Assembly (NCBI GenBank): GCA_028280515.1 | Contig: JANQLP010000148.1 | Coordinates: 1-50,237, forward strand | Length of the DNA stretch: 50,237 bases | Direction of reading: 5' to 3' | Origin: Hyphomicrobiales bacterium | GTDB lineage: Bacteria > Pseudomonadota > Alphaproteobacteria > Rhizobiales > Methyloligellaceae | Part shown: piece after piece, positions 10,678 through 40,005 of the stretch | Layout of the letters: each line of letters opens with the position of its first letter | Numbering within the stretch: the stretch's first letter is position 1 | Notes under the pieces: model-generated | What the model saw: the letters and a program-made list of their open reading frames with translations, nothing else | Told to the model about the DNA's origin: nothing | Databases searched by the model: none | Position numbers and translations under genes: made by a program

Positions 10678-13600
10678 ATGGAAAAGGACATTTTCGGTTT
10701 CATCTGGCGTTACAGCAAGGCGCAACAGATCACCATCATGGTGATGACCGCCTTCTCGCTGCCGTTTCTGTACTTCGTCCTCGACCTCCCGAAATACATC
10801 ATCAACGACGCCATCGACGGCAAGAGCTTCCCCGTCGAAATTCTCGGATTCGAGTTCGGGCAAATCGCGCTGCTGATGCTGCTCTGCGCCCTGTTCCTGA
10901 TACTGCTGGTCATCAACGCCGTCTTCTCGATGGTCATCAACACATATAAGGGCGTGTCCTCGGAGCGGCTCATCCGGCGCCTCAGATACCAGCTCTATGA
11001 GAACATCCTGCGCTTTCCGCCGCGCCATTTTCAGCGCGTCACCCCACCCGAACTGAGCGCGATGATCACGGCTGAAGTCGAACCCATGGCCGACTTCATC
11101 AGTGATTCGTTCTCCATGCCCATGGTGCAGGGCGGCACCATGCTGACGATCCTGTTCTTCATGATCTCCGAGGACCCGATCCTCGGCATCGTCGCCATTT
11201 CGATGGTCCCTGTGCAGGCCTACGTGATCCCAAAGCTCCAGCGAAAGGTGAACATGCTGGGCCGCGAACGCGTTTTCCGGGCCCGCAAGCTGGCCGGCTG
11301 GGTGGGTGAATCCGTCCAGGGTATCGGCGATATCCACTCCAACGACACCTCCGCCTACATGCGGGCGAACCTTTCGGAGAAACTCGGCGGCATCTTCAAT
11401 ATCCGCTACCAGCTCTACCAGAAGAAGTTCTTCATGAAGGCGCTGAACGTCTTCCTGAGCCAGTTGACGCCGCTGTTCTTCTATTCGATCGGCGGCATCC
11501 TGATCATCAACGGTGATCTCTCGCTCGGCGCGCTTGTGGCCGTTCTTGCCGCCTATGCCCGCTTCACCACGCCGTGGAAGGAACTGCTGAAATACTACCA
11601 GCGTTACAACGACATCAAGATCAAGTACGAGCAGCTTATCGAGCAGTTCCAGCCTGGCCAGATGCAGAGCGCCCAGCTTCTTCTGGAGCGGCCCCAATCG
11701 ATCCCGCGCCTCAAGGACCCCATCAGCCTGCGCAATGTCCGGCTGGTCGACGAGGGCGCGAAGATGCTCGACGACGTCTCGGTCCGGATCGAACCGTCGG
11801 ACAAGATCGCAGTCGTCTCTGAACCCGGCACGCGGGACAGGTTCGCTCATCTGATCGCACGCCTGATCCACCCCACGAGCGGGACAATTTGCGTGGGTGA
11901 CACAAACCTCGCTGAACTCCCCGAAGCTGTGACCGGCGCGGCGATCGGCTATGCCGGTCCGGAATCGTACATTTTCGACGGCACCGTCGAGGACAATCTG
12001 CTTTACGGCATCAAGCACACCCAGAAGCCGAATGGGGAAATCGTCGACGAAGACGACTTCGCGTACCGCGAGTCGCTTGCGTCGGGAAACAGTGTGGATG
12101 ACGCCAACGGCGACTGGATCGACTATGAGCAGCTCGGCCTCACCAATGAACACGAGCTGAATGACTGGGTGTTTCGGGTCATCCGTGCGGTGGAACTCGA
12201 CGGCCTGCTTGCCGCCCGCTCCCTCGGCATGGGGATGGATGTCGAGAAACACCAGGAGCTTGCAGAACGACTGGTCGAAGCCCGCTCGCTCATCGCCTCC
12301 AAGCTGAAGCAGCAGAGCAACGGCGCGGAGCTCATTCGCCCGTTTGCGTTCGATCGCTACAACGCCAACGCCTCGGTTGCCGCCAACCTGGTATTCGGCG
12401 AGCCGGTGGGCGACACGTTCGAATTCAGGACCCTTGGAAGCAACGCGCTGGTGCGCTCGGTTCTCGACGAGTGCGACCTGACAGGCCGGTTCGTCAACAT
12501 CGGACAGAAGCTCGCCGAAACCCTGATCGATCTGTTCGGCGACATGTCTCCCGATCAGCCCCTGTTCGAGACGTTCAGTTTCGTCGACAAGGACACCCTT
12601 CAGAAACTGAAGATCATCACCACGAACGTCAACCGGGACGGATACGACGCGCTGGAAGAAGACGAGAAAACGCTTCTGATCTCCCTCACCTTCCAGATCA
12701 TTGTCGACCGTCACCGTTTCGGGTTCATCGACGAGGACATGCAGGCGCGTATCCTCGAGGCCCGGCGGCTGTTCCGCGAAAAACTGCCGGAGGACGAGAA
12801 AGACGCGATCGCGTTCTTTGACCAGGAGACCTTCAACGCCCAGTTGAGCAACCGCTGCAACCTGCTCATGGGACGGATCAACCACACGATCAGCGGCGCC
12901 GAGCAGAAGACCAACGAGATCACCTTCGAGGTGCTCGAGCAGATGAAACTCTCGAACGAGATGATCCTGCTTGCCACCGGATGCCCGGTCGGTGTCGGCG
13001 GCTCGCGGCTATCGCATTCCGACAAGCAGAAGATCACGCTTGCCCGAAGCCTCATCAAGAAGCCCGATATCCTTGTCAGCAACGACGCGTTGAGTTCACT
13101 GGACCGCGACGCGCAAACGCGAATCCGACGCAACATGTTCGGCCTGCTGCCCGATACCACATTCGTTCTGTTCTTCAGCGAGATGCCCGAGAGCTCCGAG
13201 TTCAAGCAAGTTCTGACACTGCGGGACGGCCGCATCACCGACAGGCTGATCGAGCATCGCGAGGATGAGGCCAAAGCCCCGGCGGTCGAGCCGGAGGAGG
13301 CAACAGCCGTGGCGGAAGACGGCGAAGCGCAGCCGGTCATCCTCAATGCAGAGACGGCTGCATTGGAGAAAATCCCGCTGTTCTCAGGGATAAGCCACAA
13401 TCATCTGAAATTGCTGGCGTTCAGCAGCCGGCGGATTGATTTTGCCGACGGCCAGAACCTCATCAAGGAGGGTGAGCCCGGCAAATATGCGTTTGTGATT
13501 CTGGATGGCGAAATCGATATCATTCTCGGCAAGGGCAAGAAGCAAAACGTGATCGCCACATACGGCAAGGATACCCTGATCGGGGAACTCAGCCTGCTGA

Positions 13601-13776
13601 CCGATGCGCTGACGACGGCAACGGTTCGCGCAGCCGGGCCGGTGACCGCCCTGCGCATCGAAAAGGACGTCTTCCTGCAACTGATGGAAGGCGATGGCAT
13701 GGTCGCCTCGCAGGTTGCAAGCTGGGTCAGCAACAAGCTTGTCCATCAAACGAAGCTGCTCAACGAGGCCGCATAG
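10678..13776 (+). CDS. ABC-type membrane protein with degenerate ATPase and C-terminal cyclic-nucleotide-binding domain
   Basis: The 1032-residue protein has an ABC exporter-type membrane domain (about residues 13-320), a split nucleotide-binding domain (about 349-443 and 769-858), a 325-residue insertion between the halves, and a cNMP-binding domain (about 898-1028, with GEPGKYAFVILDGEID and GKDTLIGELSLLTDA). Every ATPase motif is altered: the Walker A site reads VVSEPGTRDRF with no GKS/T, the Q-loop Gln is absent (YAGPESYIF), the signature reads LSHSD, Walker B reads ILVSNDALSSLD, and the H-switch His is replaced in LFFSEMPES. The insertion holds a second NLVFG motif (VAANLVFG), hinting at internal duplication. 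It may be a cNMP-sensing membrane scaffold rather than a pump, which is inference. A methyltransferase gene follows four bases later. Confidence 0.85.
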   Translation: MEKDIFGFIWRYSKAQQITIMVMTAFSLPFLYFVLDLPKYIINDAIDGKSFPVEILGFEFGQIALLMLLCALFLILLVINAVFSMVINTYKGVSSERLIRRLRYQLYENILRFPPRHFQRVTPPELSAMITAEVEPMADFISDSFSMPMVQGGTMLTILFFMISEDPILGIVAISMVPVQAYVIPKLQRKVNMLGRERVFRARKLAGWVGESVQGIGDIHSNDTSAYMRANLSEKLGGIFNIRYQLYQKKFFMKALNVFLSQLTPLFFYSIGGILIINGDLSLGALVAVLAAYARFTTPWKELLKYYQRYNDIKIKYEQLIEQFQPGQMQSAQLLLERPQSIPRLKDPISLRNVRLVDEGAKMLDDVSVRIEPSDKIAVVSEPGTRDRFAHLIARLIHPTSGTICVGDTNLAELPEAVTGAAIGYAGPESYIFDGTVEDNLLYGIKHTQKPNGEIVDEDDFAYRESLASGNSVDDANGDWIDYEQLGLTNEHELNDWVFRVIRAVELDGLLAARSLGMGMDVEKHQELAERLVEARSLIASKLKQQSNGAELIRPFAFDRYNANASVAANLVFGEPVGDTFEFRTLGSNALVRSVLDECDLTGRFVNIGQKLAETLIDLFGDMSPDQPLFETFSFVDKDTLQKLKIITTNVNRDGYDALEEDEKTLLISLTFQIIVDRHRFGFIDEDMQARILEARRLFREKLPEDEKDAIAFFDQETFNAQLSNRCNLLMGRINHTISGAEQKTNEITFEVLEQMKLSNEMILLATGCPVGVGGSRLSHSDKQKITLARSLIKKPDILVSNDALSSLDRDAQTRIRRNMFGLLPDTTFVLFFSEMPESSEFKQVLTLRDGRITDRLIEHREDEAKAPAVEPEEATAVAEDGEAQPVILNAETAALEKIPLFSGISHNHLKLLAFSSRRIDFADGQNLIKEGEPGKYAFVILDGEIDIILGKGKKQNVIATYGKDTLIGELSLLTDALTTATVRAAGPVTALRIEKDVFLQLMEGDGMVASQVASWVSNKLVHQTKLLNEAA

Positions 13777-13779
13777 CCT

Positions 13780-14436
13780 ATGGAGAGATCCGACCGCGAG
13801 AGCATGTATCTGGATATTCTCAAAGGCCTGTCGGTCTACTTCGACAGCCCTTTCGTCGCGGATATCCGCGAGACGGCTCTGCGCTACCCGCGTCTGACGC
13901 TCGGCCACGCCCTCAACCGCAATCAGATGACGTCGAAGCGGTGGCTTGTCGAAAAGCTGCTTGGCGCGACGGGCGGGGAGCTCGGCCGCGTCTGCATTCT
14001 CGGCGGCTGGTACGGCGTGCTCGGCGCCATGCTGCTGCACGATCCGCGCTTCAGGATCGAGCGCGTGCGCAGCATCGACATGGACCCGGGCTGCGAAGAC
14101 ATCGCCAGGAGCCTCAACCGCACCCATGCCGAGGCGGGCCGGTTCGAGTTTCAGCTTGCCGACATGTACGAGATCGATTTCCCGAAAGACGCGTTCGACC
14201 TCATCGTCAACACGAGCTGCGAGCATCTGGAGACGATCGACAAGTGGTTCGAACGCATCCCTTCGGGCACGCTGCTGACGCTTCAGTCGAACAATTATTT
14301 CGGCATCGACGGACATGTGAACTGCGTCGACAACATCGAACAGTTCAAGCAGCAGGTCCCGTTGTCCGAGACCCTATTCGAAGGCGAGCTGGAGCTGAAG
14401 AACTACACCCGGTTCATGCTGATCGGCCGTCGTTAG
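13780..14436 (+). CDS. Class I SAM-dependent methyltransferase next to the pseudo-ABC gene
   Basis: The 218-residue product has a methyltransferase fold with an unusual motif I, RVCILGGWYGVLGAML, followed by the acidic motif II loop VRSIDMDPGCEDIA, then FQLADMYEID and the motif IV segment FDLIVNTSCEHLE. The ATG at 13780 lies only three bases after the stop of the pseudo-ABC gene, which indicates co-transcription and probably translational coupling. A second ATG at 13804 is also possible. The substrate is unknown. Its stop is six bases from the left arm of the inverted-repeat element. Confidence 0.82.
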   Translation: MERSDRESMYLDILKGLSVYFDSPFVADIRETALRYPRLTLGHALNRNQMTSKRWLVEKLLGATGGELGRVCILGGWYGVLGAMLLHDPRFRIERVRSIDMDPGCEDIARSLNRTHAEAGRFEFQLADMYEIDFPKDAFDLIVNTSCEHLETIDKWFERIPSGTLLTLQSNNYFGIDGHVNCVDNIEQFKQQVPLSETLFEGELELKNYTRFMLIGRR

Positions 14437-14666: not shown

Positions 14667-15830
14667 TTAATACCGCTGATTGGCGAGCCAGGACGAAACG
14701 AGTTCAGCGCTTTTTTTCGCGCCGCCGACGTCCAACGACACCGGCTTCGGGCGCGGTCCGGCGAGTGCTGAATCGACAGTGTTTGCGAGCGTTTCCGGCG
14801 AGAGCGCCTCGGGGCCGACGAGGTGTGCCAGACCAAGCTCTTCCATGCGTCGTGCGCGTGTGAGCTGCTCCGTTTCTCCGCGCGCGGCGTAAGGAACGAG
14901 GACGGACCGGCATCCGCAGCGCAACAGATCTACAACCGTGTTGTATCCCGCTTGGGACACGGACAGCGCGCACGCCGCCAACAGGTCGGGGAAATCGCTC
15001 CGGTTGGCTTCCAGAATGACGCCATCTGGTTTGTGCGCGCCAAGCGCCTCGAAGGTGCCGGACGGCAGGTTCGGACCGGCCAGAAGCCGCCACACCCGAT
15101 TGTCTGCGGATCTGAGGGCACGTGCCTGCATTGCAGTTCGCAACAGCACCTCGCTGCGCGTTGCGCCTCCGCCCGCGGATACCAGGACTTCGCCATCCTC
15201 GCCACCGTCCGAGACCGGCGTGTCCCTGGAGAAGTCGCCGACAAGGCCGGTATGTTGCACCTTCTCCGCGATCTCCGAGGCGCGCGGAAACGTCATGTCG
15301 AGACGCGCGAATGCGGGATCGCCATGGACGAGCACGCGATCGAAGAACCTGTCCAACACATCGAGGGTTTCCCGGGCGCGGCCCGGCTTTTTGTTGGTCT
15401 GCAGGACATCGCGCACCGAGCAGACGACAAGTGGCCGGGGCGACGTGTCCCGCGCCGCCTCAAGAAGCGGGACGAGTTCGAACCGCATTTGCCGGCGGCC
15501 GAAGGGAAACGCCTCGACGATCAATACCGCCGGGTGCTTGCGTCGGAACAGATCCAGCAAGGCGTCGCGCCGGAGATCCCTGAATGTACCGTCGATGGGA
15601 GCGCCGTCAGCGCCGACCAGATCGCTGAAGTCACCGTCGCGGCACCTGATCGGCGGCAGTTGGTGAACGTTCACGCCATCCGGGACGAGGCCGGGCACGG
15701 GAACCCCGCCCGACACCAGATCCACATGAAGACCCGCTCGTGCCATCGCTGCGGCAATGTGCGCCGCCCGGTGGAGGTGCCCGACGCCCTGAAGGTACTG
15801 AACGTAAAAGAAGACCCGGGGCGCGCTCAT
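14667..15830 (-). CDS. Glycosyltransferase, MurG/GT28-like, with repeat-derived stop
   Basis: This 387-residue cytoplasmic or membrane-associated glycosyltransferase has a GT-B-type layout. The N-terminal FFYVQYLQGVGHLHRAAHIA acceptor-side motif and the C-terminal LSVSQAGYNTVVDLLRCG donor-side motif resemble MurG and UDP-sugar transferases. The GTG or ATG area at 15830 overlaps the phosphatase stop by four bases, so it is the last gene of a four-gene operon. The final Tyr codon and TAA stop come from the arm of the inserted repeat element, so the original C-terminus may have been longer or shorter. It is a paralogue of the gene at 17690-18907. Confidence 0.82.
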   Translation of the reverse strand: MSAPRVFFYVQYLQGVGHLHRAAHIAAAMARAGLHVDLVSGGVPVPGLVPDGVNVHQLPPIRCRDGDFSDLVGADGAPIDGTFRDLRRDALLDLFRRKHPAVLIVEAFPFGRRQMRFELVPLLEAARDTSPRPLVVCSVRDVLQTNKKPGRARETLDVLDRFFDRVLVHGDPAFARLDMTFPRASEIAEKVQHTGLVGDFSRDTPVSDGGEDGEVLVSAGGGATRSEVLLRTAMQARALRSADNRVWRLLAGPNLPSGTFEALGAHKPDGVILEANRSDFPDLLAACALSVSQAGYNTVVDLLRCGCRSVLVPYAARGETEQLTRARRMEELGLAHLVGPEALSPETLANTVDSALAGPRPKPVSLDVGGAKKSAELVSSWLANQRY

Positions 15831-16423
15831 GTCAGCTCGATGCTGACGTTGATGCGATCAAGATGCACCGTCCCGCCGTCCGAAACATGGAAGCAATGCA
15901 TGGCGCCCCAACGGAACTTCTCAGGCAGCGGGTCGATCATGTTCCAGCCGGTCGCAAGCGAGTAGAGCGCGCGCAGCACGCCGTGATGCGAGACGGCAAC
16001 CGTCGGTTCGGCCACCTGCCCCACCTCGGCCAGCCAGGAGCGCAGCCGGTCCTGTACCTCACGCGGCCGTTCACCGCCGTCGGGCTGGAAATCGAGACCC
16101 CGCGCCTCGTTGTCGGCCATCTCCTTGCCGAGGGACTGGCGCAACTCGGGCAGCGAGCGCCCTTCCCAGTCTCCATAGTGCATCTCGGTGAGCCGCAGCT
16201 CGATTTCAGGCTGCTTCGCGCTGAGCAGTTTTGCGGTTTCGGTCGCGCGCGAAAGCGGGCTCGAGACCCAGCGATAGGCCTCGAGCTCGGCCGGGACGCG
16301 CCAGCCTGAGACGACCGCGCGCCCTTCCGCGCTCAGCGGTACGTCCGTATGGCCCTGAAGGCGTTTTTCGCTGTTCCACGCGGTCGGGCCGTGGCGGATC
16401 ATGGCAAGGGGGATCAATTCCAC
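15827..16423 (-). CDS. Histidine phosphatase family protein
   Basis: The 198-residue enzyme belongs to the phosphoglycerate-mutase-like histidine phosphatases. The phosphohistidine motif is IRHGPTAWN near residue 10, with arginine in SSPLSRATETA, an acidic residue in EMHYGDWEG and the second His in AVSHHGVLRAL, so the active site is complete. It starts five bases after the GT4 gene ends and overlaps the next glycosyltransferase by four bases. Within this operon it may dephosphorylate a sugar phosphate or glycosylated intermediate; that role is inferred from context. Confidence 0.88.
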   Translation of the reverse strand: MELIPLAMIRHGPTAWNSEKRLQGHTDVPLSAEGRAVVSGWRVPAELEAYRWVSSPLSRATETAKLLSAKQPEIELRLTEMHYGDWEGRSLPELRQSLGKEMADNEARGLDFQPDGGERPREVQDRLRSWLAEVGQVAEPTVAVSHHGVLRALYSLATGWNMIDPLPEKFRWGAMHCFHVSDGGTVHLDRINVSIELT

Positions 16424-16428
16424 GGTTC

Positions 16429-17679
16429 CTATGCCCGCAGGCGCGCCGATGTTTCGGGAAGGCCGAACCGGCGCGCCAACTGGTCGATGCCGCGCTCGTG
16501 CGAGAAATCGCGCCGCACCCGGTCGGACCCCCGCGCGCCGAGGCGTTCGCGCAGGGCCGGATTGGCAATCAGCCGCGCGAGCTCGGCACGAAGTGCACCA
16601 ACGTCATCCGGCGCCACCAGCACCCCGTTGACGCCGTTCTCGATGAGCTCGGGGATCGCCGAAATCGACGTCGAAAGGCACGGCAGGCCCTGACTCTGCG
16701 CTTCCACGATGACGTTCGGCAGCCCGTCCATGTCACCATCCTCGGCAACACGGTTGGCGAGCACGAACAGATCGGCGCTGCGGTAGGCCTCGATCACCTG
16801 GTCATGCGGCTGCGCACCCATCCACGTCACCTTGTCGTCAATGCCCAGATCCTGCGCCCGACGTTTCAGCTCATCCAGCAGGTCGCCGAAGCCGATGTGG
16901 ACGAAACGCCAGTGCAGTCCCTCCGGCAGAGCGGCCAGCGCTTCGAGGAGACAATCATACCCTTTTTTCGGGACAGCGCGACCGACCGACAGAATGGTGA
17001 CAGCGTCGGTCTCGCTGCTGCCGTCGTTGTTACCTCTGGCTTGAGGTGGTGCGGGCAAACGGGAAAAATCGAGCCCGTGATAGACAAGCTCCAGCCGCGC
17101 CGGCTCCGGCGCAAGGCCCGAAAGATGCTGGAAGCCATAGTCGGTGCACGTGACGAGCCACTCCAGATCGCCAAGCTTGTCGCGTTTTTCCCAGTCCGGC
17201 GTCGTCCAGATATCGCGCGCATGGGCGGAACAGCTCCAGGACGTGCCGCGTGCCATCGCCGCGTAGCGGGTGACGGACGCCGGCGTATGCAGATAGTGCG
17301 CGTGAAAACGACCCGCATCCGGCGAAAATTCTTCTGCCAGAACAAGCGCCTGAAAGAAACTGCGGATTCGCACGACCGAGAAATCGCGGCGCAGGTCCCT
17401 CAACCATTGTTTTTTTGCGGCCCCGTAACCCTCGCGCCTGCGCGCACGCCGCCATGCCTTTGCGACGCGGACAGGTTCACGGGACGGGAATTCGGGGAGG
17501 TAGAGCACCGGCGCCTTGATCTCCTCGTGAACGGGATGACGCCGGGTGTCGGTCGGCTGGCGCAGGGACACGATGACGATGTCGAGGCCGCGCTGTTCAA
17601 GCGCCAGGATCTCCTGGGCAATGAAGGTTTCGGAAAGGCGCGGATAACCCTTCAGCACGAATGCGACCGGAGCGGACAC
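16429..17679 (-). CDS. Family 4 (GT-B, retaining) glycosyltransferase
   Basis: The 416-residue product begins MSAPVAFVLKGYPRLSETF from a GTG at 17679, a start chosen because it matches the GT4 N-terminus and follows GACGGGAA; longer starts run into the upstream gene. The C-terminal donor-binding domain shows ILSVGRAVPKKGYD, VTWMGAQPHDQVIEAYRSAD and the E-x7-E-like region MDGLPNVIVEAQSQGLP, all GT4 marks. It lies ten bases after the stop of the upstream glycosyltransferase. It probably adds a sugar from a nucleotide donor to a lipid or glycan acceptor made by the same operon. Confidence 0.88.
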   Translation of the reverse strand: MSAPVAFVLKGYPRLSETFIAQEILALEQRGLDIVIVSLRQPTDTRRHPVHEEIKAPVLYLPEFPSREPVRVAKAWRRARRREGYGAAKKQWLRDLRRDFSVVRIRSFFQALVLAEEFSPDAGRFHAHYLHTPASVTRYAAMARGTSWSCSAHARDIWTTPDWEKRDKLGDLEWLVTCTDYGFQHLSGLAPEPARLELVYHGLDFSRLPAPPQARGNNDGSSETDAVTILSVGRAVPKKGYDCLLEALAALPEGLHWRFVHIGFGDLLDELKRRAQDLGIDDKVTWMGAQPHDQVIEAYRSADLFVLANRVAEDGDMDGLPNVIVEAQSQGLPCLSTSISAIPELIENGVNGVLVAPDDVGALRAELARLIANPALRERLGARGSDRVRRDFSHERGIDQLARRFGLPETSARLRA

Positions 17680-17689
17680 GGTATTCCCG

Positions 17690-18907
17690 TCAGATGTCAG
17701 CGAGCTGGAGTTCCTCGGCATCGATTCCATCGCCGAGGATTCTGCGCGCCATGCCGCCGATATAGTCAAGCCCGCCAAGCATATCGGGCCGCAGCGCCGC
17801 CGACGGCTTCGCCTGATGGGGAAGCTTTTTCAGCGCCTCGATCATCACACCGGTGTCCATCTCGCTGTCGGGCACCAGCACGTCCAGCAAACCTAACTCC
17901 CGTGCCCGCAACGCCCGGATCAGCTGTTCCTTCCGCGGTTCGGTGCGCGGAATGACCAGAGCGGGTTTGTCGTAGGAGAGGATTTCACAGAACGTGTTGT
18001 ATCCGCCCATCGACACGACGCAGCTCGAATTGGCCATCAGCACCTCCAGACGGGAATCGAAGGTGATCACGTTGACCCGGTCGAGACACTTGGCCCGTTC
18101 GATGAAGTCGTCGCGCTCCTCATGCGGCATGAAGGGGCCGAGCACGACGAGGGCGTCGAGGGGAAGCGTCGCATCCGCCTCGTAGGCGCGCATGACCCAG
18201 TCGATCATGGCGACGCCGTCGCCACCGCCGCCGGCCGTCACCAGCATGTAAGGCTCCTCGATGTCGAGCGCCTTCGGCAGATCGGTTTCCCTGGGCAGGG
18301 ACCGCGGCAGGTAGCCGGTATAGTGCATCTTTTCGCGAATGTCCGGGGACAGGCTCATGCTGTCGAGCGGATCGACGAACTCCTCCAGCCCGTAGACCCA
18401 GATTTCATCATAAAGGTCTTCCATCGCCGCAAGAGAATGGCCGTTGCTCCACTCCTTCTTCAGCAACATCGGCTCATCCATCACGTCGCGCATCCCGAGC
18501 ACCAGCCGCGTATCGGCCGACTTCAGCATGCGCAGGGTTTCCTCCATCTCGCCCTTCAGCCCGAGCGGCTCCTTGTCGACCAGCAACAGATCGGGCGAGA
18601 ACGTCCGCGCGGTGTGGCGGATGATGGATTCCCGGATGGAGAGCGTGTCCTTGAGGTCGATATGCAGTCCGAGCGACGTATAGTCGCCATTGTAGAGCTT
18701 GATCACGCCGGGGATGCGGATGAAGTCCACCCGGGCGCGAAAATCGTAGTTCCCGATGATCGGCGACCCCGACAGGATCAGCACGGTCAGGCCCTTGAAC
18801 CGCTCAACGAGCGAATGGGCGATCGTCCGGCACCGGCGCAGATGGCCAAGGCCGAACGTGTCATGGCTGTAGATCAGGATGCGCTTGGACCGTAATGATT
18901 CGACCAT
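17690..18907 (-). CDS. Glycosyltransferase, MurG/GT28-like (first gene of operon)
   Basis: The 405-residue protein starts MVESLRSKRILIYSHDTFGLGHLRR, with the GxGHLxR loop that typifies MurG-like acceptor domains, and has a C-terminal CVVSMGGYNTFCEILSY motif with a glycine-rich LVTAGGGGDG loop for the nucleotide sugar. It shares this plan with the glycosyltransferase at the other end of the operon, so the two are paralogues acting perhaps at successive steps. It is the promoter-proximal gene of a leftward operon of three glycosyltransferases and a phosphatase. The acceptor is unknown. Confidence 0.85.
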   Translation of the reverse strand: MVESLRSKRILIYSHDTFGLGHLRRCRTIAHSLVERFKGLTVLILSGSPIIGNYDFRARVDFIRIPGVIKLYNGDYTSLGLHIDLKDTLSIRESIIRHTARTFSPDLLLVDKEPLGLKGEMEETLRMLKSADTRLVLGMRDVMDEPMLLKKEWSNGHSLAAMEDLYDEIWVYGLEEFVDPLDSMSLSPDIREKMHYTGYLPRSLPRETDLPKALDIEEPYMLVTAGGGGDGVAMIDWVMRAYEADATLPLDALVVLGPFMPHEERDDFIERAKCLDRVNVITFDSRLEVLMANSSCVVSMGGYNTFCEILSYDKPALVIPRTEPRKEQLIRALRARELGLLDVLVPDSEMDTGVMIEALKKLPHQAKPSAALRPDMLGGLDYIGGMARRILGDGIDAEELQLADI

Positions 18908-19756: not shown

Positions 19757-21646
19757 TTGAATGACCTTGTGAGGATTAACGACCTCAGGGTCGAGTTTGC
19801 CCTGCTCGGCGGCACGGTCGAAGCCGTCAAGGGCGTCTCCATGCGCATCCGCCCCGGATCGACCGTGGCCCTGGTCGGCGAGTCGGGCTCCGGCAAGTCG
19901 GTCATCGCCCAATCGATCATGGGCATTCTGCCGAAGGCCGGACGCATCACGTCGGGCGAGATCCTGTTTGCCGATCCGGTACGCGACGGCGGCGTGGTCG
20001 ACATTGCCGCTCTGTCGCCCAACAGCCGCGAGATGCGCGATATTCGCGGCGGCAGCATCTCGATCGTGTTCCAGGAACCGATGACGTCGCTTTCACAGTT
20101 CCACACCATCGGCAATCAGATCGGAGAAGCGCTGCACCTGCATCGCAACGTCGGCAAGGCGCAAGGGCGCGACACCGTCGAAAACATGCTGAAACTGGTC
20201 GGCTTTCCAGATCCGGCCGGTGCGGTCGACAAGTATGCCTTCGAGCTTTCCGGCGGTCTGCGCCAGAGAGCCATGATCGCCATGGCCCTGATCTGCCGTC
20301 CCGCCCTGCTGATCGCCGACGAGCCGACAACGGCACTCGACGTGTCGATCCAGGCGGCCATTCTCAAGCTGATCAAGGACCTTCAGGCCGAGTTCGGCAT
20401 GGCGGTTCTCATGATCACCCATGATCTCGGCGTGGTGGCCAACATCGCCGAGGAGGTGGTGGTACTGTATCACGGCCGCGTCATGGAAAGCGGGACCATC
20501 ACCGACATCTTCCGCCGGCCGAAGCATCCCTATCTGCGCGCGCTCATGAAGGCGGTCCCCCATTTCGACATGAAGCCAGGCGAGCGGCTCACCCCGCTGC
20601 GCGAGATCACGTACGAGACCGGCCCGATGATTGAGACGCGCGCGCCCTGGCCCGAGGGCGTCAACACCGACGTCAACGTATTGAGCGTGAACGGGCTGAC
20701 CAAGTCCTACACGACGCGCAAGCAGGCCTGGCTCGGCTCGCGCGAAGTCACGCGGACGGTGGCGGTGGACAATGTGAGCTTCGACATCAGGCGCGGCGAA
20801 TGCCTCGGCCTGGTCGGCGAAAGCGGGTGCGGCAAAACGTCGGTCAGCAAGATCATCATGCGCGCGATTACGCCGGACGCCGGCACCGTCACATTCAACG
20901 ACCGCGGTGAGGACATCGACCTCCTGGCGGTCCCGGACGACGAGATGATGCCGCTGCGCCGCAAGATCCAGATGGTCTTCCAGGACCCACAAAGCTCGCT
21001 CAACCCGCGCATGACGGTGTTCGACATCATCCGCGAGCCGCTGATCATTCACAAGACCGGATCGCCGTCGCAGCAGGCCGAGATGGTCAAGGAGCTGATG
21101 CGGCTCGTGGGCCTCGATCCGAGGTTCCTCAACCGCTACCCGCACAGTTTTTCCGGCGGCCAGCGCCAGCGCATCGGCCTGGCGCGTGCGCTCGCTCTCA
21201 AGCCCGACCTTCTGATCTGCGACGAGCCGGTCTCCGCCCTCGACGTCTCGATCCAGGCGCAGGTGCTGAACCTGTTCAAGGACCTGCAGAAGGACCTGGG
21301 GCTCACCTACCTGTTCATTTCCCACAACCTCGCCGTGGTCGACTACGTCGCCGACCGCATCGCGGTGATGTGCCGGGGCCGCATCGTCGAGATCGCGCCA
21401 CGCGAAGTCCTGTTCCGCAATCCCGTCCATCACTACACGCAGCGGCTCATTGCCGCCGTGCCCTATCCGGACCTCAAACGGAAACTGGATTTCTCCAAAT
21501 TCGGCAAGCCGGGCGGCGACGATCCGGAGAAATGGCCGATGCCGTTCGCCATGGGACCCGGTCATCCCTCGGCCATGTTCGATCTCGGGCACGAACACTA
21601 CGTTCTTGCCGCGGAAGGCGCATCCCGCCGGGAGCTCGTTCAATGA
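19757..21646 (+). CDS. Peptide-type ABC transporter, fused double ATPase
   Basis: The 629-residue protein is a tandem fusion of the two ATPases (DppD-like then DppF-like) of an oligopeptide importer. Half 1 has Walker A GESGSGKSV (about residue 41), signature LSGGLRQRA and Walker [13 protein letters not shown]. Half 2 has GESGCGKTSVS, FSGGQRQRI and LLICDEPVSALD. The proposed start is a TTG at 19757. It leads an operon with a binding protein and two permeases; its stop overlaps the next start (ATGA). Fused ATPases of this kind are known in alphaproteobacteria, and the transported ligand is not determined. Confidence 0.9.
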   Translation: MNDLVRINDLRVEFALLGGTVEAVKGVSMRIRPGSTVALVGESGSGKSVIAQSIMGILPKAGRITSGEILFADPVRDGGVVDIAALSPNSREMRDIRGGSISIVFQEPMTSLSQFHTIGNQIGEALHLHRNVGKAQGRDTVENMLKLVGFPDPAGAVDKYAFELSGGLRQRAMIAMALICRPALLIADEPTTALDVSIQAAILKLIKDLQAEFGMAVLMITHDLGVVANIAEEVVVLYHGRVMESGTITDIFRRPKHPYLRALMKAVPHFDMKPGERLTPLREITYETGPMIETRAPWPEGVNTDVNVLSVNGLTKSYTTRKQAWLGSREVTRTVAVDNVSFDIRRGECLGLVGESGCGKTSVSKIIMRAITPDAGTVTFNDRGEDIDLLAVPDDEMMPLRRKIQMVFQDPQSSLNPRMTVFDIIREPLIIHKTGSPSQQAEMVKELMRLVGLDPRFLNRYPHSFSGGQRQRIGLARALALKPDLLICDEPVSALDVSIQAQVLNLFKDLQKDLGLTYLFISHNLAVVDYVADRIAVMCRGRIVEIAPREVLFRNPVHHYTQRLIAAVPYPDLKRKLDFSKFGKPGGDDPEKWPMPFAMGPGHPSAMFDLGHEHYVLAAEGASRRELVQ

Positions 21647-23541
21647 GAGCCCGGTTTCTCCTGGCAGTGCTCGCCCTTGTCCTGTTTGCCGCACCGGGTT
21701 CGGCCGGAACTCTGGTCGAACCGCCGTCGCTGGACAAGCTGGTCCGGGCCGGGAACCTGCCGCCGGTGCGGGAGCGCGTGCCGGCTGAGCCCGCTATTGT
21801 CGATCTCGACTCGGAGGGCAAGACCACCGGCCGTTACGGCGGCGAGCTGCGGCTACTGATGGGCAAGCAGAAAGACACCCGGATGATGAGCATCTACGGC
21901 TATGCCCGTCTGATCTCGCTGGATTCGGATCTGGAATTCGCGCCCGATATCCTGAAGAGCTTCGATGTGAAGGATGGCCGGCAGTTCACGTTCCGTCTGC
22001 GCAGGGGGCACAGATGGTCGGACGGTCATCCCTTCACGGCAGAGGATTTCCGCTACTACTGGGAGGACGTGGCCAACAACAAGAAACTCACGCCGCGCGG
22101 ATTGCCCAAGGCCATGCTGGTCGAGAACGAACCGCCGAAATTCGAGGTGATCGACGAGACCACCGTCCGCTACACCTGGCACAGGCCGAACCGCGAGTTC
22201 ATTTCCTGGATCGCCGGATCGCGTCCGCTCGCGCTCTTCCGCCCTGCCCACTACCTCAAGCAGTTCCATGTCGACCATGGCGACAAAAGCGGGATCGACG
22301 CCCTGGTGAAGGCCAGCCACAAGGTTGACTGGGCCGACCTGCATATGAGCCGTGACCGCTGGTACAACATGGACAATGCGGACCTTCCCACGCTGCAGCC
22401 GTGGATGAACACGACGCGGCCGCCGGCCATCCGGTTCATCTTCAAGCGCAACCCCTACTATCACCGGATCGACACCAATGGCCGCCAGCTGCCCTATATC
22501 GACCGCGTTGTTCTGTCGCTCGGCGAGTCGAAGATCGTTCCGGCCAAGACGGGCACCGGCGAAGCCGATCTGCAGGCCAAATATATCCGTCTTGACCACT
22601 ACACCTTCCTGAAGGAAGGCGAGCAGCGCCATGATTACTCGGTCCGCTTGTGGAAACGCACGCAAGGGGCGCACATCGCCCTGTTCCCGAATCTGAACGC
22701 TGCCGATCCGGAGTGGCGCAAACTTCTGCAGGACGTTCGTTTCCGCCGCGCCCTGTCCCTGGCGATCGACCGCCATGAGATCAATCAGGTCGTCTATTAC
22801 GGTCTCGCGCGTGAGGGAAACAACACGGTCCTTCCCGAAAGCCCGCTCTATCGCCCACGCCTGCAGTCCGCCTGGGCGACGCTCGACCTGGAGCGCGCCA
22901 ACATGCTTCTTGACGAGATGGGGCTTACCAAGCGCAACAAGGACGGTATCCGTTTGCTGCCGGGCGGACGGCCGCTGATCATCACCGTCGACACCGCGGG
23001 CGAGAGCACCTATCAGGTCGACGTCCTGGAGCTGGTGCACGACAGCTGGCTCAAGGCCGGCGTCAAGCTCTTCACCAAACCGTCGCAGCGCGAGGTATTC
23101 CGCCAGCGCATCGTCGCCGGCCAGACGGTCATGTCGACCTTTTCCGGCATCTCGAACGGCATTCCCACCGCCGCCATGAGCCCGGAGGAATTCGCGCCGA
23201 CCAACAGGTACCAGTTGCAATGGCCGCAATGGGGATTGTGGGGCCAGACAGCGGGCAAGATGGGCGAAAAGCCCGCGCTTCCCGAGGTGTCCCGCCTGTT
23301 GCGGCTCTATCAGGATTGGCTGTATGCGGCCGATGAAGATGAACAGAGGAAGACCTGGGAGGAAATGCTCGGCATCCACGCCGACCAGGTCTTCACCATC
23401 GGAATCGTCAATTCCACCCTGCAGCCGGTGGTGGTCAACAATCGGCTGCGCAATGTCCCCGAAAAGGGCTTCTACAACTGGAGCCCCGGTGCCTATTTCG
23501 GCATCTACAAGCCCGACACCTTCTGGTTCGCGGCCGAATGA
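21643..23541 (+). CDS. Family 5 extracellular solute-binding protein
   Basis: The 632-residue periplasmic protein has a clear signal peptide, MRARFLLAVLALVLFAAPGSAG, cleaved near residue 22. SBP_bac_5-type segments follow: YARLISLDSDLEFAPDILKS, FRLRRGHRWSDGHPFTAED and VRFRRALSLAIDRHEINQ. It is longer than standard DppA (about 535), as in a subgroup with an N-terminal extension (residues 25-65). The ATG at 21643 overlaps the ATPase stop. It captures the ligand for the transporter encoded around it, probably a peptide or other oligomeric solute. Confidence 0.9.
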   Translation: MRARFLLAVLALVLFAAPGSAGTLVEPPSLDKLVRAGNLPPVRERVPAEPAIVDLDSEGKTTGRYGGELRLLMGKQKDTRMMSIYGYARLISLDSDLEFAPDILKSFDVKDGRQFTFRLRRGHRWSDGHPFTAEDFRYYWEDVANNKKLTPRGLPKAMLVENEPPKFEVIDETTVRYTWHRPNREFISWIAGSRPLALFRPAHYLKQFHVDHGDKSGIDALVKASHKVDWADLHMSRDRWYNMDNADLPTLQPWMNTTRPPAIRFIFKRNPYYHRIDTNGRQLPYIDRVVLSLGESKIVPAKTGTGEADLQAKYIRLDHYTFLKEGEQRHDYSVRLWKRTQGAHIALFPNLNAADPEWRKLLQDVRFRRALSLAIDRHEINQVVYYGLAREGNNTVLPESPLYRPRLQSAWATLDLERANMLLDEMGLTKRNKDGIRLLPGGRPLIITVDTAGESTYQVDVLELVHDSWLKAGVKLFTKPSQREVFRQRIVAGQTVMSTFSGISNGIPTAAMSPEEFAPTNRYQLQWPQWGLWGQTAGKMGEKPALPEVSRLLRLYQDWLYAADEDEQRKTWEEMLGIHADQVFTIGIVNSTLQPVVVNNRLRNVPEKGFYNWSPGAYFGIYKPDTFWFAAE

Positions 23542-23582: not shown

Positions 23583-24581
23583 ATGATCGGCTACGTCATC
23601 CGGCGCATACTGATCATGATCCCGACCCTGCTCGCGATCAGCATGATCGTGTTCATCATCATCGAGCTGCCGCCGGGAGACTATCTGGAGAGCTATGTCG
23701 CCGAGTTGCAGGCGCAGGGCGAAAGCGTCGATCCTCAGGAAATCCAGTTCCTGCGCGAACAGTACGGCTTTGACGAATCGCCCGTGCAGCGCTATCTGCG
23801 CTGGGTCGGCGGCATGCTTCAGGGCGATTTCGGCTATTCGTTCGAATACAGGCTCCCCGTTTCGGACGTAGTCGGAGATAGGTTGTTCCTGACCATCGTC
23901 GTTTCCATGGCGACGATCATCTTCACCTGGGTGATCGCCTTCCCCATCGGCATCTACTCGGCGACGCATCAGTACAGCTGGGGCGACTACGGGCTGACGT
24001 TCATCGGGCTGCTTGGTCTCGCCACACCGAACTTCCTGCTTGCGCTGATCCTGCTCTATTTCGCCAACGTGACGTTCGGGACATCCATCGGCGGCCTGAT
24101 GGACCCGAAGTACATCGACCAGCCATGGAGCGTGGACAAGGCGCTGTCGGTGCTCGAACACCTATGGATACCGGTCGTGGTGATCGGAACGGCCGGCACC
24201 GCGGGGATGATCCGCCGGTTACGCGCCAACCTGCTCGATGAGCTCCAGAAACAGTATGTCGTGACCGCGCGCGCCAAAGGCCTGCCGCCGGGCAGGGCGT
24301 TGGTGAAATACCCGCTCCGTTCGGCATTGAACTTCTTCGTCGCCGACATCGGCACACTGCTGCCGAGCGTCATTTCCGGGGCCGAGCTGGTGGCGGTCGT
24401 GCTCTCACTGCCGACCACCGGACCGATCCTGATCACCGCGCTGCAGAGCCAGGACATGTACTTGGCAGGATCGTTCCTGATGTTCCTCGCCACGCTGACG
24501 GTGGTCGGCGTGCTGATTTCGGATCTGCTGCTTGCCTGGCTCGACCCGCGTATCCGGCTGGCGGGAGGCGCGTCCCGATGA
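23583..24581 (+). CDS. Peptide-type ABC permease, DppB-like
   Basis: This 332-residue inner-membrane permease has about six spans. The N-terminus MIGYVIRRILIMIPTLLAIS is characteristic of DppB/OppB, and the ATPase-coupling EAA loop is recognisable in YVVTARAKGLPPGRALVKY. The ATG follows GGAAGGGGGG. Its last bases overlap the start of the second permease (ATGA), so the two are translationally coupled. It forms the translocation pore with the DppC-like partner. Confidence 0.92.
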   Translation: MIGYVIRRILIMIPTLLAISMIVFIIIELPPGDYLESYVAELQAQGESVDPQEIQFLREQYGFDESPVQRYLRWVGGMLQGDFGYSFEYRLPVSDVVGDRLFLTIVVSMATIIFTWVIAFPIGIYSATHQYSWGDYGLTFIGLLGLATPNFLLALILLYFANVTFGTSIGGLMDPKYIDQPWSVDKALSVLEHLWIPVVVIGTAGTAGMIRRLRANLLDELQKQYVVTARAKGLPPGRALVKYPLRSALNFFVADIGTLLPSVISGAELVAVVLSLPTTGPILITALQSQDMYLAGSFLMFLATLTVVGVLISDLLLAWLDPRIRLAGGASR

Positions 24582-25753
24582 CCACCCCGTCCCGCAAAGA
24601 AAACAAACTCGCGCATTTCGTCTCCAAGGAGCCGTTCGACCCGCATTCCGTCGACCATCACGTATCGGCGGCGCAGGAGAAGTACTATCTCGCGTCGCAA
24701 TGGAAACTGATGTGGTGGAAGTTCACCCGCCACCGGCTCGCCGTCATCTCCGGCATCTTCCTGCTGCTGACGTATTTCTCGATCCTCATTTCCGAGTTCC
24801 TTGCGCCCTACGGCCTACACACCCGGAATGTCGATTTCATCTTTGCCCCGCCGCAGAGTGTCCATTTCTTCCACGAAGGGTCGTTCGTCGGCCCGTTCGT
24901 GTACGGCACCGACTACCGTCTCAATATGGAGAACCTGCAGCGGGTCTACACGGAGGACAAAAGCAGGCTGTACCGGCTTAAGTTCTTCTGCCGCGGCGAC
25001 GCCTACGAGTTCTGGGGTCTGTTCAAGAGCGACCTGCATCTCGTGTGCCCGGAGAAAGGCGGCACCCTGTTCCTGCTCGGCACCGACCGCCTCGGACGGG
25101 ACATTCTGTCGCGGATCATCTATGGCGCGCGCATTTCGCTCACCATCGGGCTCATCGGCATCGCGATCAGCTTTTCGCTGGCGCTGGTGATCGGCGGCAT
25201 CGCCGGCTATTACGGCGGCATTGTCGACCTCTTCACACAGCGCGTCATCGAGGTGATCCAGTCATTCCCGCAGATCCCGCTCTGGATGGCGTTGTCCGCG
25301 GTCCTGCCGGTGACGTGGAGTCCCCTGCTCGTCTACTTCGCCATCACGGTCATTCTCGCCATGCTCGACTGGACGGGGCTTGCCCGCGCCGTACGCTCGA
25401 AAATCCTCTCGCTGCGCGAGGACGACTACTGCATGGCTGCCCAGCTCATGGGCGCACGGCCCCGCCGCGTGATCGGCCGCCATCTGCTGCCCGGTCTGAT
25501 GAGCCATCTTATCGCCTCGGCCACACTGTCGATCCCCACGATCATTCTCGGCGAGACCGCGCTGTCGTTCCTCGGCCTCGGCCTCAGACCGCCGATCACC
25601 AGCTGGGGCGTGTTGCTGAACGAGGCACAGAACATCAACGTGGTCGCGCTGTACCCGTGGCTGATCCTGCCCGTGGTGCCCGTGGTCCTCGTGATCATTG
25701 CGTTCAATTTTCTGGGGGATGGCCTACGGGATGCCGCGGACCCCTACAAATAG
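24578..25753 (+). CDS. Peptide-type ABC permease, DppC-like
   Basis: The 391-residue protein is longer than typical DppC (about 300) because of a polar segment of roughly 100 residues between the first span (about 53-73) and the core domain. Core features include LFLLGTDRLGRDILSRIIYGAR and the coupling loop CMAAQLMGARPRRVIGRH. It is the last gene of the operon that begins at 19757. A small hairpin (GCTACA/TGTAGC, 25771-25785) follows the stop but lacks a T-run. Confidence 0.92.
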   Translation: MTTPSRKENKLAHFVSKEPFDPHSVDHHVSAAQEKYYLASQWKLMWWKFTRHRLAVISGIFLLLTYFSILISEFLAPYGLHTRNVDFIFAPPQSVHFFHEGSFVGPFVYGTDYRLNMENLQRVYTEDKSRLYRLKFFCRGDAYEFWGLFKSDLHLVCPEKGGTLFLLGTDRLGRDILSRIIYGARISLTIGLIGIAISFSLALVIGGIAGYYGGIVDLFTQRVIEVIQSFPQIPLWMALSAVLPVTWSPLLVYFAITVILAMLDWTGLARAVRSKILSLREDDYCMAAQLMGARPRRVIGRHLLPGLMSHLIASATLSIPTIILGETALSFLGLGLRPPITSWGVLLNEAQNINVVALYPWLILPVVPVVLVIIAFNFLGDGLRDAADPYK

Positions 25754-25869
25754 ACGTCTTTGCTCCTTGAGCTACAATATGTAGCCGGCCGCTCATCAAA
25801 CTGTGTGCATATTTCCGGGCCGGGTTTGCGTACATAATTACAGCAAAGGCATCTTTGGGAGAGGAACGG

Positions 25870-27270
25870 ATGCTGTCAGGACTCAGGCAATTCGTTTTCG
25901 GCGAGAAGATCGGCGGCGCCCTGCCCGAACGGGTTCAGGAAGACATTTCCCGGCAACAGCAGGAGGGCGAAAAGCTGATCGGCTGGGTACAGCTTGCCCT
26001 CGTTCTCACATTTGCAACGCTCTACGGGATCGCGCCGAAAACCGGTGAACACGCCATGGTCCAGCCGGTGCCCTGGGCCATCTCGGCCTACTTCCTGTTC
26101 ACCATCGTTCGGCTTTTCGCCGCCTACCGGAACTACCTGCCCAACTGGCTGCTGATCGCCTCGGTCATCGTCGACATGGGGCTCCTGATGTTCCTCATGT
26201 GGAGTTTCCACATCCAGTACGAACAGCCCGCTTCGTTCTATCTGAAGGCGCCGACGCTGATGTACGCGTTCATCTTCATCGCGCTCAGGACCCTGCGCTT
26301 CGAGCCCCGATACATCGTCTGGGCCGGCATCACGGCAATCATCGGCTGGACCGCAATGGTCTCATACGTGCTGTTCGCCGATCCCGAGAATCCGATGATT
26401 ACCCGCGACTATGTCGCCTATCTCACCTCCAATTCGGTTCTGATCGGCGCCGAGGTCGACAAGGTCATTTCGATGGCTGCCGTGACATTCATTCTGTTTG
26501 TCGCGATCCTCAGGGCCCAGCGTATTCTCAACCGCGCGGTGCTGGACGCGACGGCGGCGCGGGATTTGTCCCGCTTCGTATCGCGCGAAGTTGCGGACCG
26601 GATCACCTCGTCCGACCAGGCCGTCCAGCCCGGCGACGGTGAATCGCGCATCGGCACGGTGGTGTTCACCGACATCGAGGGCTTCTCCACCGTATCGGAA
26701 AAGCTCACGCCGCAGCAGCTCGCCGAAACCCTGAACGAATATTTCGAAGCGACGTGCGAGATTATTGACAAGCATGGCGGGGTCATTACCCAGTTTCAGG
26801 GAGACCTCATGCTGATCACCTTCAACGCCGTGACCCCCGACGAGAACCACGCGACGAACGCCATGAAAACGGTTATCGGTATTCGTGACCTGACGCAGAA
26901 GAGGAAATTCTGCCACGGCGGCAGGCTTCCGACCCGCTGTGGCGTCAACACCGGCGAGATCATCGTCGGCGCCATCGGCTCCAAGGAACGGCTGTGCTTC
27001 ACCGTTCACGGGGACCAGGTGAACGTCGCGGCGCGGCTCGAACAGCAGAACAAGCAGTTCGGATCGTATATTCTGGTCGGCGAGAACACGGTCGATGCGT
27101 GCGGGTCGGAGTTTGAGTTTACGCGCGTCGGTGAAGTGACCGTGCGCGGGCGCGAAACCCCGACGAAAATATACACGGTGAAGGGCGAACAAGAACATGA
27201 CCGACAACAAGCTCCCGCTGCTGGCGGAAAAACAGGGGCACGTCGCAAGGCTCACAATCGACAGGCCTGA
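25870..27270 (+). CDS. Membrane-bound class III adenylate/guanylate cyclase
   Basis: The 466-residue protein has about six hydrophobic spans in residues 35-220, a short linker, then a class III cyclase domain (about 260-450). Metal-binding aspartates lie in VVFTDIEGFS (Asp 268) and QFQGDLML (Asp 312); the transition-state pair appears in VNVAARLE. The usual substrate-selecting Lys near residue 308 is Gln here (ITQFQGD), so nucleotide preference is uncertain. The ATG at 25870 follows GGGAGAGGAA. The end overlaps the enoyl-CoA hydratase gene by 74 bases. Its product could serve the cNMP-binding protein encoded at 10678, though this is speculation. Confidence 0.87.
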   Translation: MLSGLRQFVFGEKIGGALPERVQEDISRQQQEGEKLIGWVQLALVLTFATLYGIAPKTGEHAMVQPVPWAISAYFLFTIVRLFAAYRNYLPNWLLIASVIVDMGLLMFLMWSFHIQYEQPASFYLKAPTLMYAFIFIALRTLRFEPRYIVWAGITAIIGWTAMVSYVLFADPENPMITRDYVAYLTSNSVLIGAEVDKVISMAAVTFILFVAILRAQRILNRAVLDATAARDLSRFVSREVADRITSSDQAVQPGDGESRIGTVVFTDIEGFSTVSEKLTPQQLAETLNEYFEATCEIIDKHGGVITQFQGDLMLITFNAVTPDENHATNAMKTVIGIRDLTQKRKFCHGGRLPTRCGVNTGEIIVGAIGSKERLCFTVHGDQVNVAARLEQQNKQFGSYILVGENTVDACGSEFEFTRVGEVTVRGRETPTKIYTVKGEQEHDRQQAPAAGGKTGARRKAHNRQA

Positions 27271-37275: not shown

Positions 37276-37281
37276 ATGCTA

Positions 37282-38751: not shown

Positions 38752-38769
38752 TTTGGAGGATACTGAAAA

Positions 38770-39789: not shown

Positions 39790-40005
39790 TCGGCTAGTTT
39801 GGGCCTATGTCCAATCCGATCCGTTGAAACAGAAGTACAATTATGCATAAAAATAGAAAGTTGGCTTACTGGCTCATATCAATGCAAACGAATTCACACT
39901 TTCACTGAATTTTTTCCGGATCACAGAACTGAATGCTGGCCAATAACAAAGCCTTTTTGGCAATGTTTGCTTCTCTAGCAACACGCGAACATTATCGCCG
40001 GCGCG

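Follow-up and report, generated by a model that had tools for sequence, protein, structure and literature searches.

A degenerate ABC exporter with a repeat-bearing insert and a cyclic-nucleotide-binding tail, and its linkage to glycosyltransferases and an oligopeptide-type importer in alphaproteobacteria

The locus and the architecture of the encoded protein

The stretch of DNA analysed here (the window) comprises 50,237 nucleotides of contig JANQLP010000148.1 from a Hyphomicrobiales bacterium and carries a gene for an ABC exporter-like protein with a degenerate ATPase, here called pseudo-ABC, which ends in a cyclic-nucleotide-binding (cNMP) domain. The gene is followed by a methyltransferase gene 3 bases downstream, an operon of glycosyltransferases on the opposite strand and an oligopeptide-type importer, with the linked locus running to position 25753. 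The features are as follows.

10678..13776, +, pseudo-ABC exporter with C-terminal cNMP domain, 1032 amino acids (open reading frame, Pfam)
10678..11682, +, ABC exporter transmembrane domain, residues 1-335 (Pfam ABC_membrane)
11713..12033, +, degenerate ABC ATPase, N-terminal part, residues 346-452, with ENLLFG copy 1 at 438-443
11815..11838, +, degenerate Walker A VSEPGTRD, residues 380-387, K to R386 and S/T to D387 (alignment)
11959..11961, +, Q-loop position, Gln to Pro428 (alignment)
12034..12882, +, insert domain, residues 453-735, with two further Q-loop/ENLLFG module copies
12280..12411, +, module copy 2, residues 535-578 (HHalign)
12760..12885, +, module copy 3, residues 695-736 (HHalign)
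12883..13251, +, degenerate ABC ATPase, C-terminal part, residues 736-858, with LSHSD, Walker B ILVSND and His to Ser834
13339..13773, +, cNMP-binding domain, residues 888-1032, phosphate-binding Arg to Thr979 (Pfam, alignment)
13780..14436, +, methyltransferase, also in relatives L009, L010, L012 and L013
14667..15830, -, GT28-like glycosyltransferase b (GT28b), linked operon
15827..16423, -, histidine phosphatase, linked operon
16429..17778, -, GT4 (EpsE-like) glycosyltransferase, linked operon
17690..18907, -, GT28-like glycosyltransferase a (GT28a), co-occurs with the pseudo-ABC gene
19757..21646, +, oligopeptide-type ABC importer ATPase, two P-loops intact in sequence
21646..23541, +, oligopeptide-type importer solute-binding protein (family 5), start provisional
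23583..24581, +, oligopeptide-type importer permease 1, co-occurs with the pseudo-ABC gene
24578..25753, +, oligopeptide-type importer permease 2
25855..27270, +, adenylate/guanylate cyclase-like protein adjoining the importer, membership of the system uncertain

In the window protein, the membrane domain is that of an exporter and the ATPase retains the ABC fold. Pfam ABC_membrane (PF00664) matched residues 53-298 at 65.6 bits, with PDB profile matches to the exporter transmembrane domain from E 1e-44, and Pfam cNMP_binding (PF00027) matched residues 921-1004 at 62.9 bits. The exporter outline, the C-terminal cNMP domain and the uninterrupted 3-kb reading frame (1032 codons, no internal stop) of a preliminary description of this DNA are all borne out. 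The ATPase itself is barely recognisable to Pfam, as ABC_tran (PF00005) matched residues 706-800 only, at 25.2 bits against a cut-off of 25. In an AlphaFold2 model built with 48 family proteins as input (mean pLDDT 78.2, pTM 0.67), the two ATPase parts were modelled with pLDDT mostly of ~78-94, and the top Foldseek matches were ABC exporters (E 5e-16), with TM-scores of ~0.5-0.6 when compared with chains of half-exporters; full-length exporters superposed poorly overall.

A triplicated Q-loop module

The two parts of the ATPase are separated by an insert of ~285-290 residues (453-735), and ENLLFG copies 1 and 3 lie 289 residues apart; the preliminary description had placed an insertion here, correctly, but at ~325 residues. 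It had also reported a second N-L-V-F-G motif as if part of the ATPase had been duplicated, and the repeat is real, except that the motif occurs three times (438-443, 568-574 and 726-732) rather than twice. HHalign aligned copies 2 and 3 with a probability of 98.5% (E 2e-15, 42 columns), copies 1 and 2 with 82% and copies 1 and 3 with 79%, well above control segment pairs, which reached at most 1.5% in 17 pairs and 7.2% in 36 draws, some of them repeated, indicating that the repetition exceeds chance. The profile alignments thus identify the two ENLLFG copies of the insert, each with its preceding helix and strand, as repeats of the Q-loop segment of the ATPase itself.

Beyond these repeats, nothing in the insert was recognised. 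No Pfam family was matched by 34 members (best E 0.034) and no PDB sequence by the insert (best E 0.59), and the model of the insert alone (pLDDT 88, pTM 0.77) had no match at E 0.001 among PDB folds or the viral structures of BFVD; we therefore rejected its assignment to a known domain in these collections. The window insert matched the family insert profile at E 2.9e-98, the profile having been built with the window protein included.

Family distribution and selection

A search for related loci matched 344 stretches, 318 of which encode relatives, and the best 80 of these were kept for an 81-row set. Five of the best 80 are from Hyphomicrobiales and are 69-86% identical to the window protein, while the other 75 are 32-36% identical and come almost entirely from records titled as Rhodobacteraceae or as one of their genera. 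L011 and L028 are short rows, the first because of a contig end and the second because of a broken frame that leaves gaps at four motif positions. The transmembrane domain is the most conserved part of the alignment of this set (mean 0.83). With the insert as profile, 131 of 385 alphaproteobacterial genomes were matched, mostly by open frames of ~900 residues and mostly without the tail. A phylum-wide sample of 398 genomes, whatever its share of other classes, gave matches in 31, all from the same genome, order or class as the window.

Comparison of the window gene with that of L009, its nearest relative, gave an overall dN/dS of 0.073. By region, the value was lowest in the two ATPase parts (0.061 and 0.034), followed by the cNMP domain (0.080) and the insert (0.087), and highest in the linker (0.169). 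The range against L009, L011 and L010 was 0.07-0.12, and these values indicate purifying selection in every domain. Since nearly all catalytic residues are changed (see below), a pseudogene in decay had to be considered. This reading is refuted by the dN/dS values, by the number of relatives and by their retention of the same length and architecture at 32-36% identity, and we regard it as practically excluded. The preliminary remark that the gene is not in simple decay holds.

Loss of ATPase motifs across the family

Alignment showed that six of the seven scored ATPase positions are changed in the window protein. The Walker A Lys is Arg386 and the following S/T is Asp387, the Q-loop Gln is Pro428, the Walker B Asp is Asn802, the catalytic Glu is Asp803 and the H-switch His is Ser834; the LSGGQ signature reads LSHSD (778-782), with its Ser kept and both Gly and the Gln changed. 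The window protein thus lacks the Walker A GK[ST], the Walker B Asp and Glu, the Q-loop Gln, the H-switch His and LSGGQ, as had been claimed at the outset, apart from the single signature Ser. All six members of the window clade, which unites the window protein with five close relatives, carry R, D, P, N, D and S at the positions of K, S/T, Q, D, E and H, respectively, and keep the signature Ser. Three canonical exporters of the window's own genome are intact at K, S/T, D and E in the tree alignment. On this pattern of residues, the ATPase site of the window clade is very unlikely to hydrolyse ATP.

Motif loss is graded and extends over the family, reaching its extreme in the window clade. None of 138 scored proteins keeps all seven positions, the best keeping six; these rows comprise the 81-row set and 57 wide-sample proteins (10 fused to the cNMP domain and 47 unfused), excluding the fragment L116 and 12 of 30 insert-profile loci that duplicate others. 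All seven are found in none of the 81 fused rows and none of the ten further fused rows, the nearest being L161 with five of seven, including GKS and DE. The best-preserved member is the unfused L102 (six of seven), and unfused relatives keep the Walker A Lys in 31 of 47 cases, the Glu in 31 and the His in 22, so some members of the family may still use ATP. The S/T after the Lys is D or E in 40 of the 47 unfused relatives, and the Walker B Asp is kept in 6.

These substitutions raise the alternative that the protein is still driven by nucleotide through a rewired site, with ATP binding without fast hydrolysis driving a slow exporter or flippase; in the unfused relatives, a shift of the acidic Mg ligand out of Walker B and into the P-loop is conceivable (S/T to D/E, D to N/S/T). 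This is consistent with the pairing of a P-loop D/E with a Walker B N/S/T in 33 of 47 unfused relatives and 6 of 6 window-clade proteins, with the frequent retention of K, E and H in unfused members and with an Arg at the Lys position in 79 of the 81 rows. The pairing occurs, however, in none of the 75 Rhodobacteraceae-like rows, and the change of K, S/T, Q, D, E and H together in the window clade argues against such a site. We consider this alternative unlikely.

A second alternative is a heterodimer of the TAP or TM287/288 kind, in which the protein would supply the degenerate half and a gene elsewhere the canonical half-exporter. One-sided degeneracy is common in such exporters, and the window's genome holds other exporters. 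The type I (type IV fold) exporters MsbA, TM287/288, TmrAB and PCAT1 share the transmembrane domain and the nucleotide-binding fold with the window protein but not its lost ATPase motifs, its repeat-bearing insert or its cNMP domain. In the degenerate-site exporters TAP, Pdr5 and ABCG5/G8 (PMC7756269), the catalytic residues of one site are replaced, for example the Walker A K by R or C, and in Pdr5 the replacement extends to every motif of one site, so the degree of motif loss is compatible with a heterodimer. The dimers of TAP, Pdr5 and ABCG5/G8 keep one canonical site, whereas a homodimer of the window protein would have none. Against a linked partner, no half-exporter-like reading frame was found in 40 stretches of ~18 kb around the family gene, and the ABC ATPases of those stretches were of importer type in the two proteins checked. 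A heterodimer is, in our view, quite unlikely.

Origin and state of the cNMP tail

A cNMP-binding gene lies directly downstream, within 600 bases and on the same strand, in 32 of 33 unfused loci, the exception being L162, the longest-branched row of the family. When the tail was left out of the alignment, a quick tree search that included 33 of the 91 fused rows, but neither the outgroup row L092 nor the long-branched L162, placed these 33 rows in a single clade (SH-aLRT 100). The window tail scored 125.6 bits against the profile of the standalone cNMP proteins, compared with 72.7 bits for the next cNMP protein of the genome, among the 15 of its 20 other cNMP proteins that were scored. Given a standalone gene next to the unfused family members, one clade for all fused rows of the tree and this difference in score, an origin of the tail by fusion with the neighbouring cNMP gene is well supported, and an unrelated late addition is unlikely. 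The tree of the cNMP domains themselves was poorly resolved, and a grouping of fused with standalone rows was compatible with it (p-AU 0.65) but not positively supported.

The phosphate-binding cassette has its characteristic Glu/Asp and Arg in all 31 standalone cNMP proteins. In the window protein, Glu970 is kept and the Arg is replaced by Thr979, leaving the pair incomplete, and the Arg is T or A in all five window-clade proteins examined; among the fused rows listed (75 of 79 in the best-80 set and seven of the wide sample), it is missing only in five window-clade rows. Because the phosphate-binding Arg is replaced, cNMP sensing by the window clade is doubtful and may have been lost. The earlier description of the protein as cNMP-responsive therefore stands as to the presence of the domain and is doubtful as to the response of this copy.

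Linkage to glycosyltransferases and an importer

In unfused loci (for example L150, L152 and L159), the neighbouring operon is divergent and consists of GT28-like, GT4, GT4, histidine phosphatase and GT28-like genes, and within 9 kb of the 33 unfused loci GT28 was found in 28, GT4 in 28 and the histidine phosphatase in 26. The window has GT28b, the phosphatase, one GT4 and GT28a at 14667-18907, with GT28a and the importer permease both within 14 kb of the pseudo-ABC gene. The operon lies within 9 kb in 5 of 6 window-clade loci, the contig of the sixth (L011) ending at the gene, and in only 1 of 75 Rhodobacteraceae-like loci. The importer ATPase is present in at least 19 of the 33 unfused stretches, which end ~9 kb away, and in none of seven wide-sample fused stretches. 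These seven fused loci also lack the operon within 9 kb, and all seven genomes hold GT28a and the permease elsewhere.

The association extends across genomes. Among the 385 alphaproteobacterial genomes, pseudo-ABC and GT28a occur together in 124, pseudo-ABC only in 7, GT28a only in 2 and neither in 252 (phi 0.948); for pseudo-ABC and the importer permease, both occur in 123, 8 and 3 are discordant and 251 have neither (phi 0.936). All three genes are present in 122 genomes and absent from 250, with 13 discordant. As a control, the adjacent TauD gene, from a family with many paralogues, gave corresponding counts of 73, 58, 33 and 221 (phi 0.453). The three co-occurrence searches used different E limits (1e-5, 1e-80 and 1e-90), and the counts ignore the shared ancestry of the genomes. 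GT28a carries an in-frame stop in two genomes, G040 and G267, both with fused proteins.

The cluster of Rhizobium johnstonii 3841 starts with the cyclase and continues with the importer, three glycosyltransferases, pseudo-ABC and the cNMP gene, and the window importer is 61% (ATPase), 51% (solute-binding protein), 73% (permease 1) and 70% (permease 2) identical to that cluster, compared with 32% at most for 11 other permease matches of the window's genome to the cluster permease. The pA cluster of Rhizobium etli CIAT 652 (cyaAa, oligopeptide-type ABC genes, redA, redB, a glycosyltransferase, RHECIAT_PA0000037 and PA0000036) likewise has the same glycosyltransferases and importer and a separate cNMP gene; its family member, annotated as a putative multidrug ABC transporter, differs from the window protein in being unfused, and we found no paper on the function of this cluster. 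Judging by gene content, two GT28-like glycosyltransferases, one or two GT4 glycosyltransferases, usually a histidine phosphatase and an oligopeptide-type importer form a conserved system with pseudo-ABC. This link, the wider unfused family and the fusion origin of the tail are new with respect to the preliminary description.

An adenylate cyclase gene begins the cluster in two of four annotated rhizobial records (R. etli CIAT 652 and R. johnstonii 3841), and none was seen in the stretches covering the cluster in P. zundukense or R. etli CFN 42. The importer of the window is followed by a cyclase-like gene, and one lies upstream in L012 and L013; these are ~27% identical to the rhizobial cyclase and may not be orthologous to it. 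With seven cyclase matches in the window's genome, the linkage of cyclase and cluster could be due to chance.

Given the importer, we considered an uptake system in which it takes up a peptide or glycopeptide and pseudo-ABC would act on the glycosyltransferases as a sensor or regulator and not as the gate through which their product passes. The permease occurs in 123 of the 131 genomes with the family gene, and the solute-binding protein and permeases are conserved between the window and Rhizobium. Such a role, however, leaves unexplained why conservation is highest in a complete exporter membrane domain, and it seems to us rather improbable.

Proposed function and its significance

We infer that the fused form of pseudo-ABC may act, without ATP hydrolysis, as a gate in the membrane or as a docking platform for a surface-glycan pathway, a reading that we favour at slightly less than even confidence; the family as a whole is probably better described as a controlled gate or platform for surface sugars than as an ordinary pump. 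The exporter membrane domain would be retained as the gate or docking platform for a glycan or glycoconjugate made by the linked enzymes. The Q-loop segment of exporters faces the membrane domain, and its repeats in the insert could give an extra docking surface. The cNMP-binding protein would be the ancestral control input, separate in most lineages and fused in the clade of the window, where cNMP sensing has possibly been lost. As the system includes an importer, the direction is left open, with either glycan moving out or something moving in.

The exporter fold has been diverted before. SUR1 and CFTR resemble the proposed case in that their exporter fold serves regulation or gating, and both bind ATP; neither is known to have a cNMP domain or a link to glycosyltransferases. 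Bacteriocin-type exporters also combine an ABC exporter with cNMP domains, and these have a canonical ATPase and a domain order different from that of the window protein. Since CFTR is an ABC exporter turned channel and the cNMP domain is fused or adjacent, the cNMP-gated channel of the preliminary description was also weighed. The linkage to glycosyltransferases and an importer and the loss of the phosphate-binding Arg in the window clade argue against it, and we consider a channel very improbable.

More tentatively, and with low confidence, the gate or platform proposed here could represent, throughout Alphaproteobacteria, a new functional class of ABC protein, a signal-controlled and hydrolysis-free gate or assembly platform dedicated to one glycan system, in which the Q-loop module was triplicated and a cNMP sensor was recruited and then fused. 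We recognised no paper in the open-access literature searched as describing the pseudo-ABC family. The annotated plasmid records viewed name its members ABC transporter ATP-binding, transmembrane-domain or multidrug proteins. PMC11103875 includes pRL110056 with the O-antigen genes important for root colonisation, and this gene may or may not correspond to one of the linked glycosyltransferases.

Of the 385 alphaproteobacterial genomes sampled, 131, or roughly one in three, carry the family. If its members do not use ATP and act in a glycan pathway, the current ABC-transporter and multidrug names mislead, and rhizobia, roseobacters and others would possess a hitherto overlooked system, possibly controlled by cAMP, that combines glycosyltransferases and an importer with a pseudo-transporter. 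With both fused and unfused forms and a graded loss of motifs, the family lends itself to direct testing of how a pump becomes a non-pump.

Genes associated with the pseudo-ABC gene

Among the 75 Rhodobacteraceae-like loci, a single case (L069, 13780-19006) was found in which the glycosyltransferase operon adjoins the fused gene, whose product carries its own cNMP-binding domain. The GT28a (GT28-like glycosyltransferase) matches of genomes G040 and G267, whose fused proteins are early-branching in the tree, each contain one in-frame stop. Two glycosyltransferase genes in the L173 cluster (R. etli CIAT 652 pA) bear the names redA and redB, and a literature search on these two genes of the cluster found nothing relevant.

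Around the unfused loci, where in 32 of 33 cases the cNMP domain is encoded by a separate downstream gene, further genes were present:

L159, 7549-8040: small Methyltransf_17 gene (PF12692, Pfam)
L152, 724-2060: a pair of conserved genes, 280 aa and 165 aa long, with the glycosyltransferases on one side and the importer on the other

The small Methyltransf_17 gene lies less than 9 kb from the pseudo-ABC gene in 19/33 unfused loci; in L150, L152, and L159 it comes immediately after the gene for the cNMP-binding protein. Neither of the two conserved genes of L152 had a match in Pfam or NCBIfam, and their gene row was found again in 7/40 stretches.

Other features of the window

25855-27270, + strand: protein resembling class III adenylate/guanylate cyclases (82 bits against PF00211)
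37276-39789, + strand: low-GC stretch

The cyclase-like gene, one of seven class III cyclase-like matches in this genome, directly follows the importer genes. The low-GC stretch, which looks like an acquired island, encodes a CsgG/FlgO-like protein as well as a 491-aa protein with no match in Pfam; GC content is 41% in 38001-40000 versus about 60-66% across most of the window.

ATPase motifs of the unfused relatives

In 33 of the 47 unfused proteins (L102-L166), replacement of the Walker A S/T by D/E is paired with replacement of the Walker B Asp by N/S/T, as though the acidic residue that binds Mg had moved across from Walker B to Walker A in these relatives.
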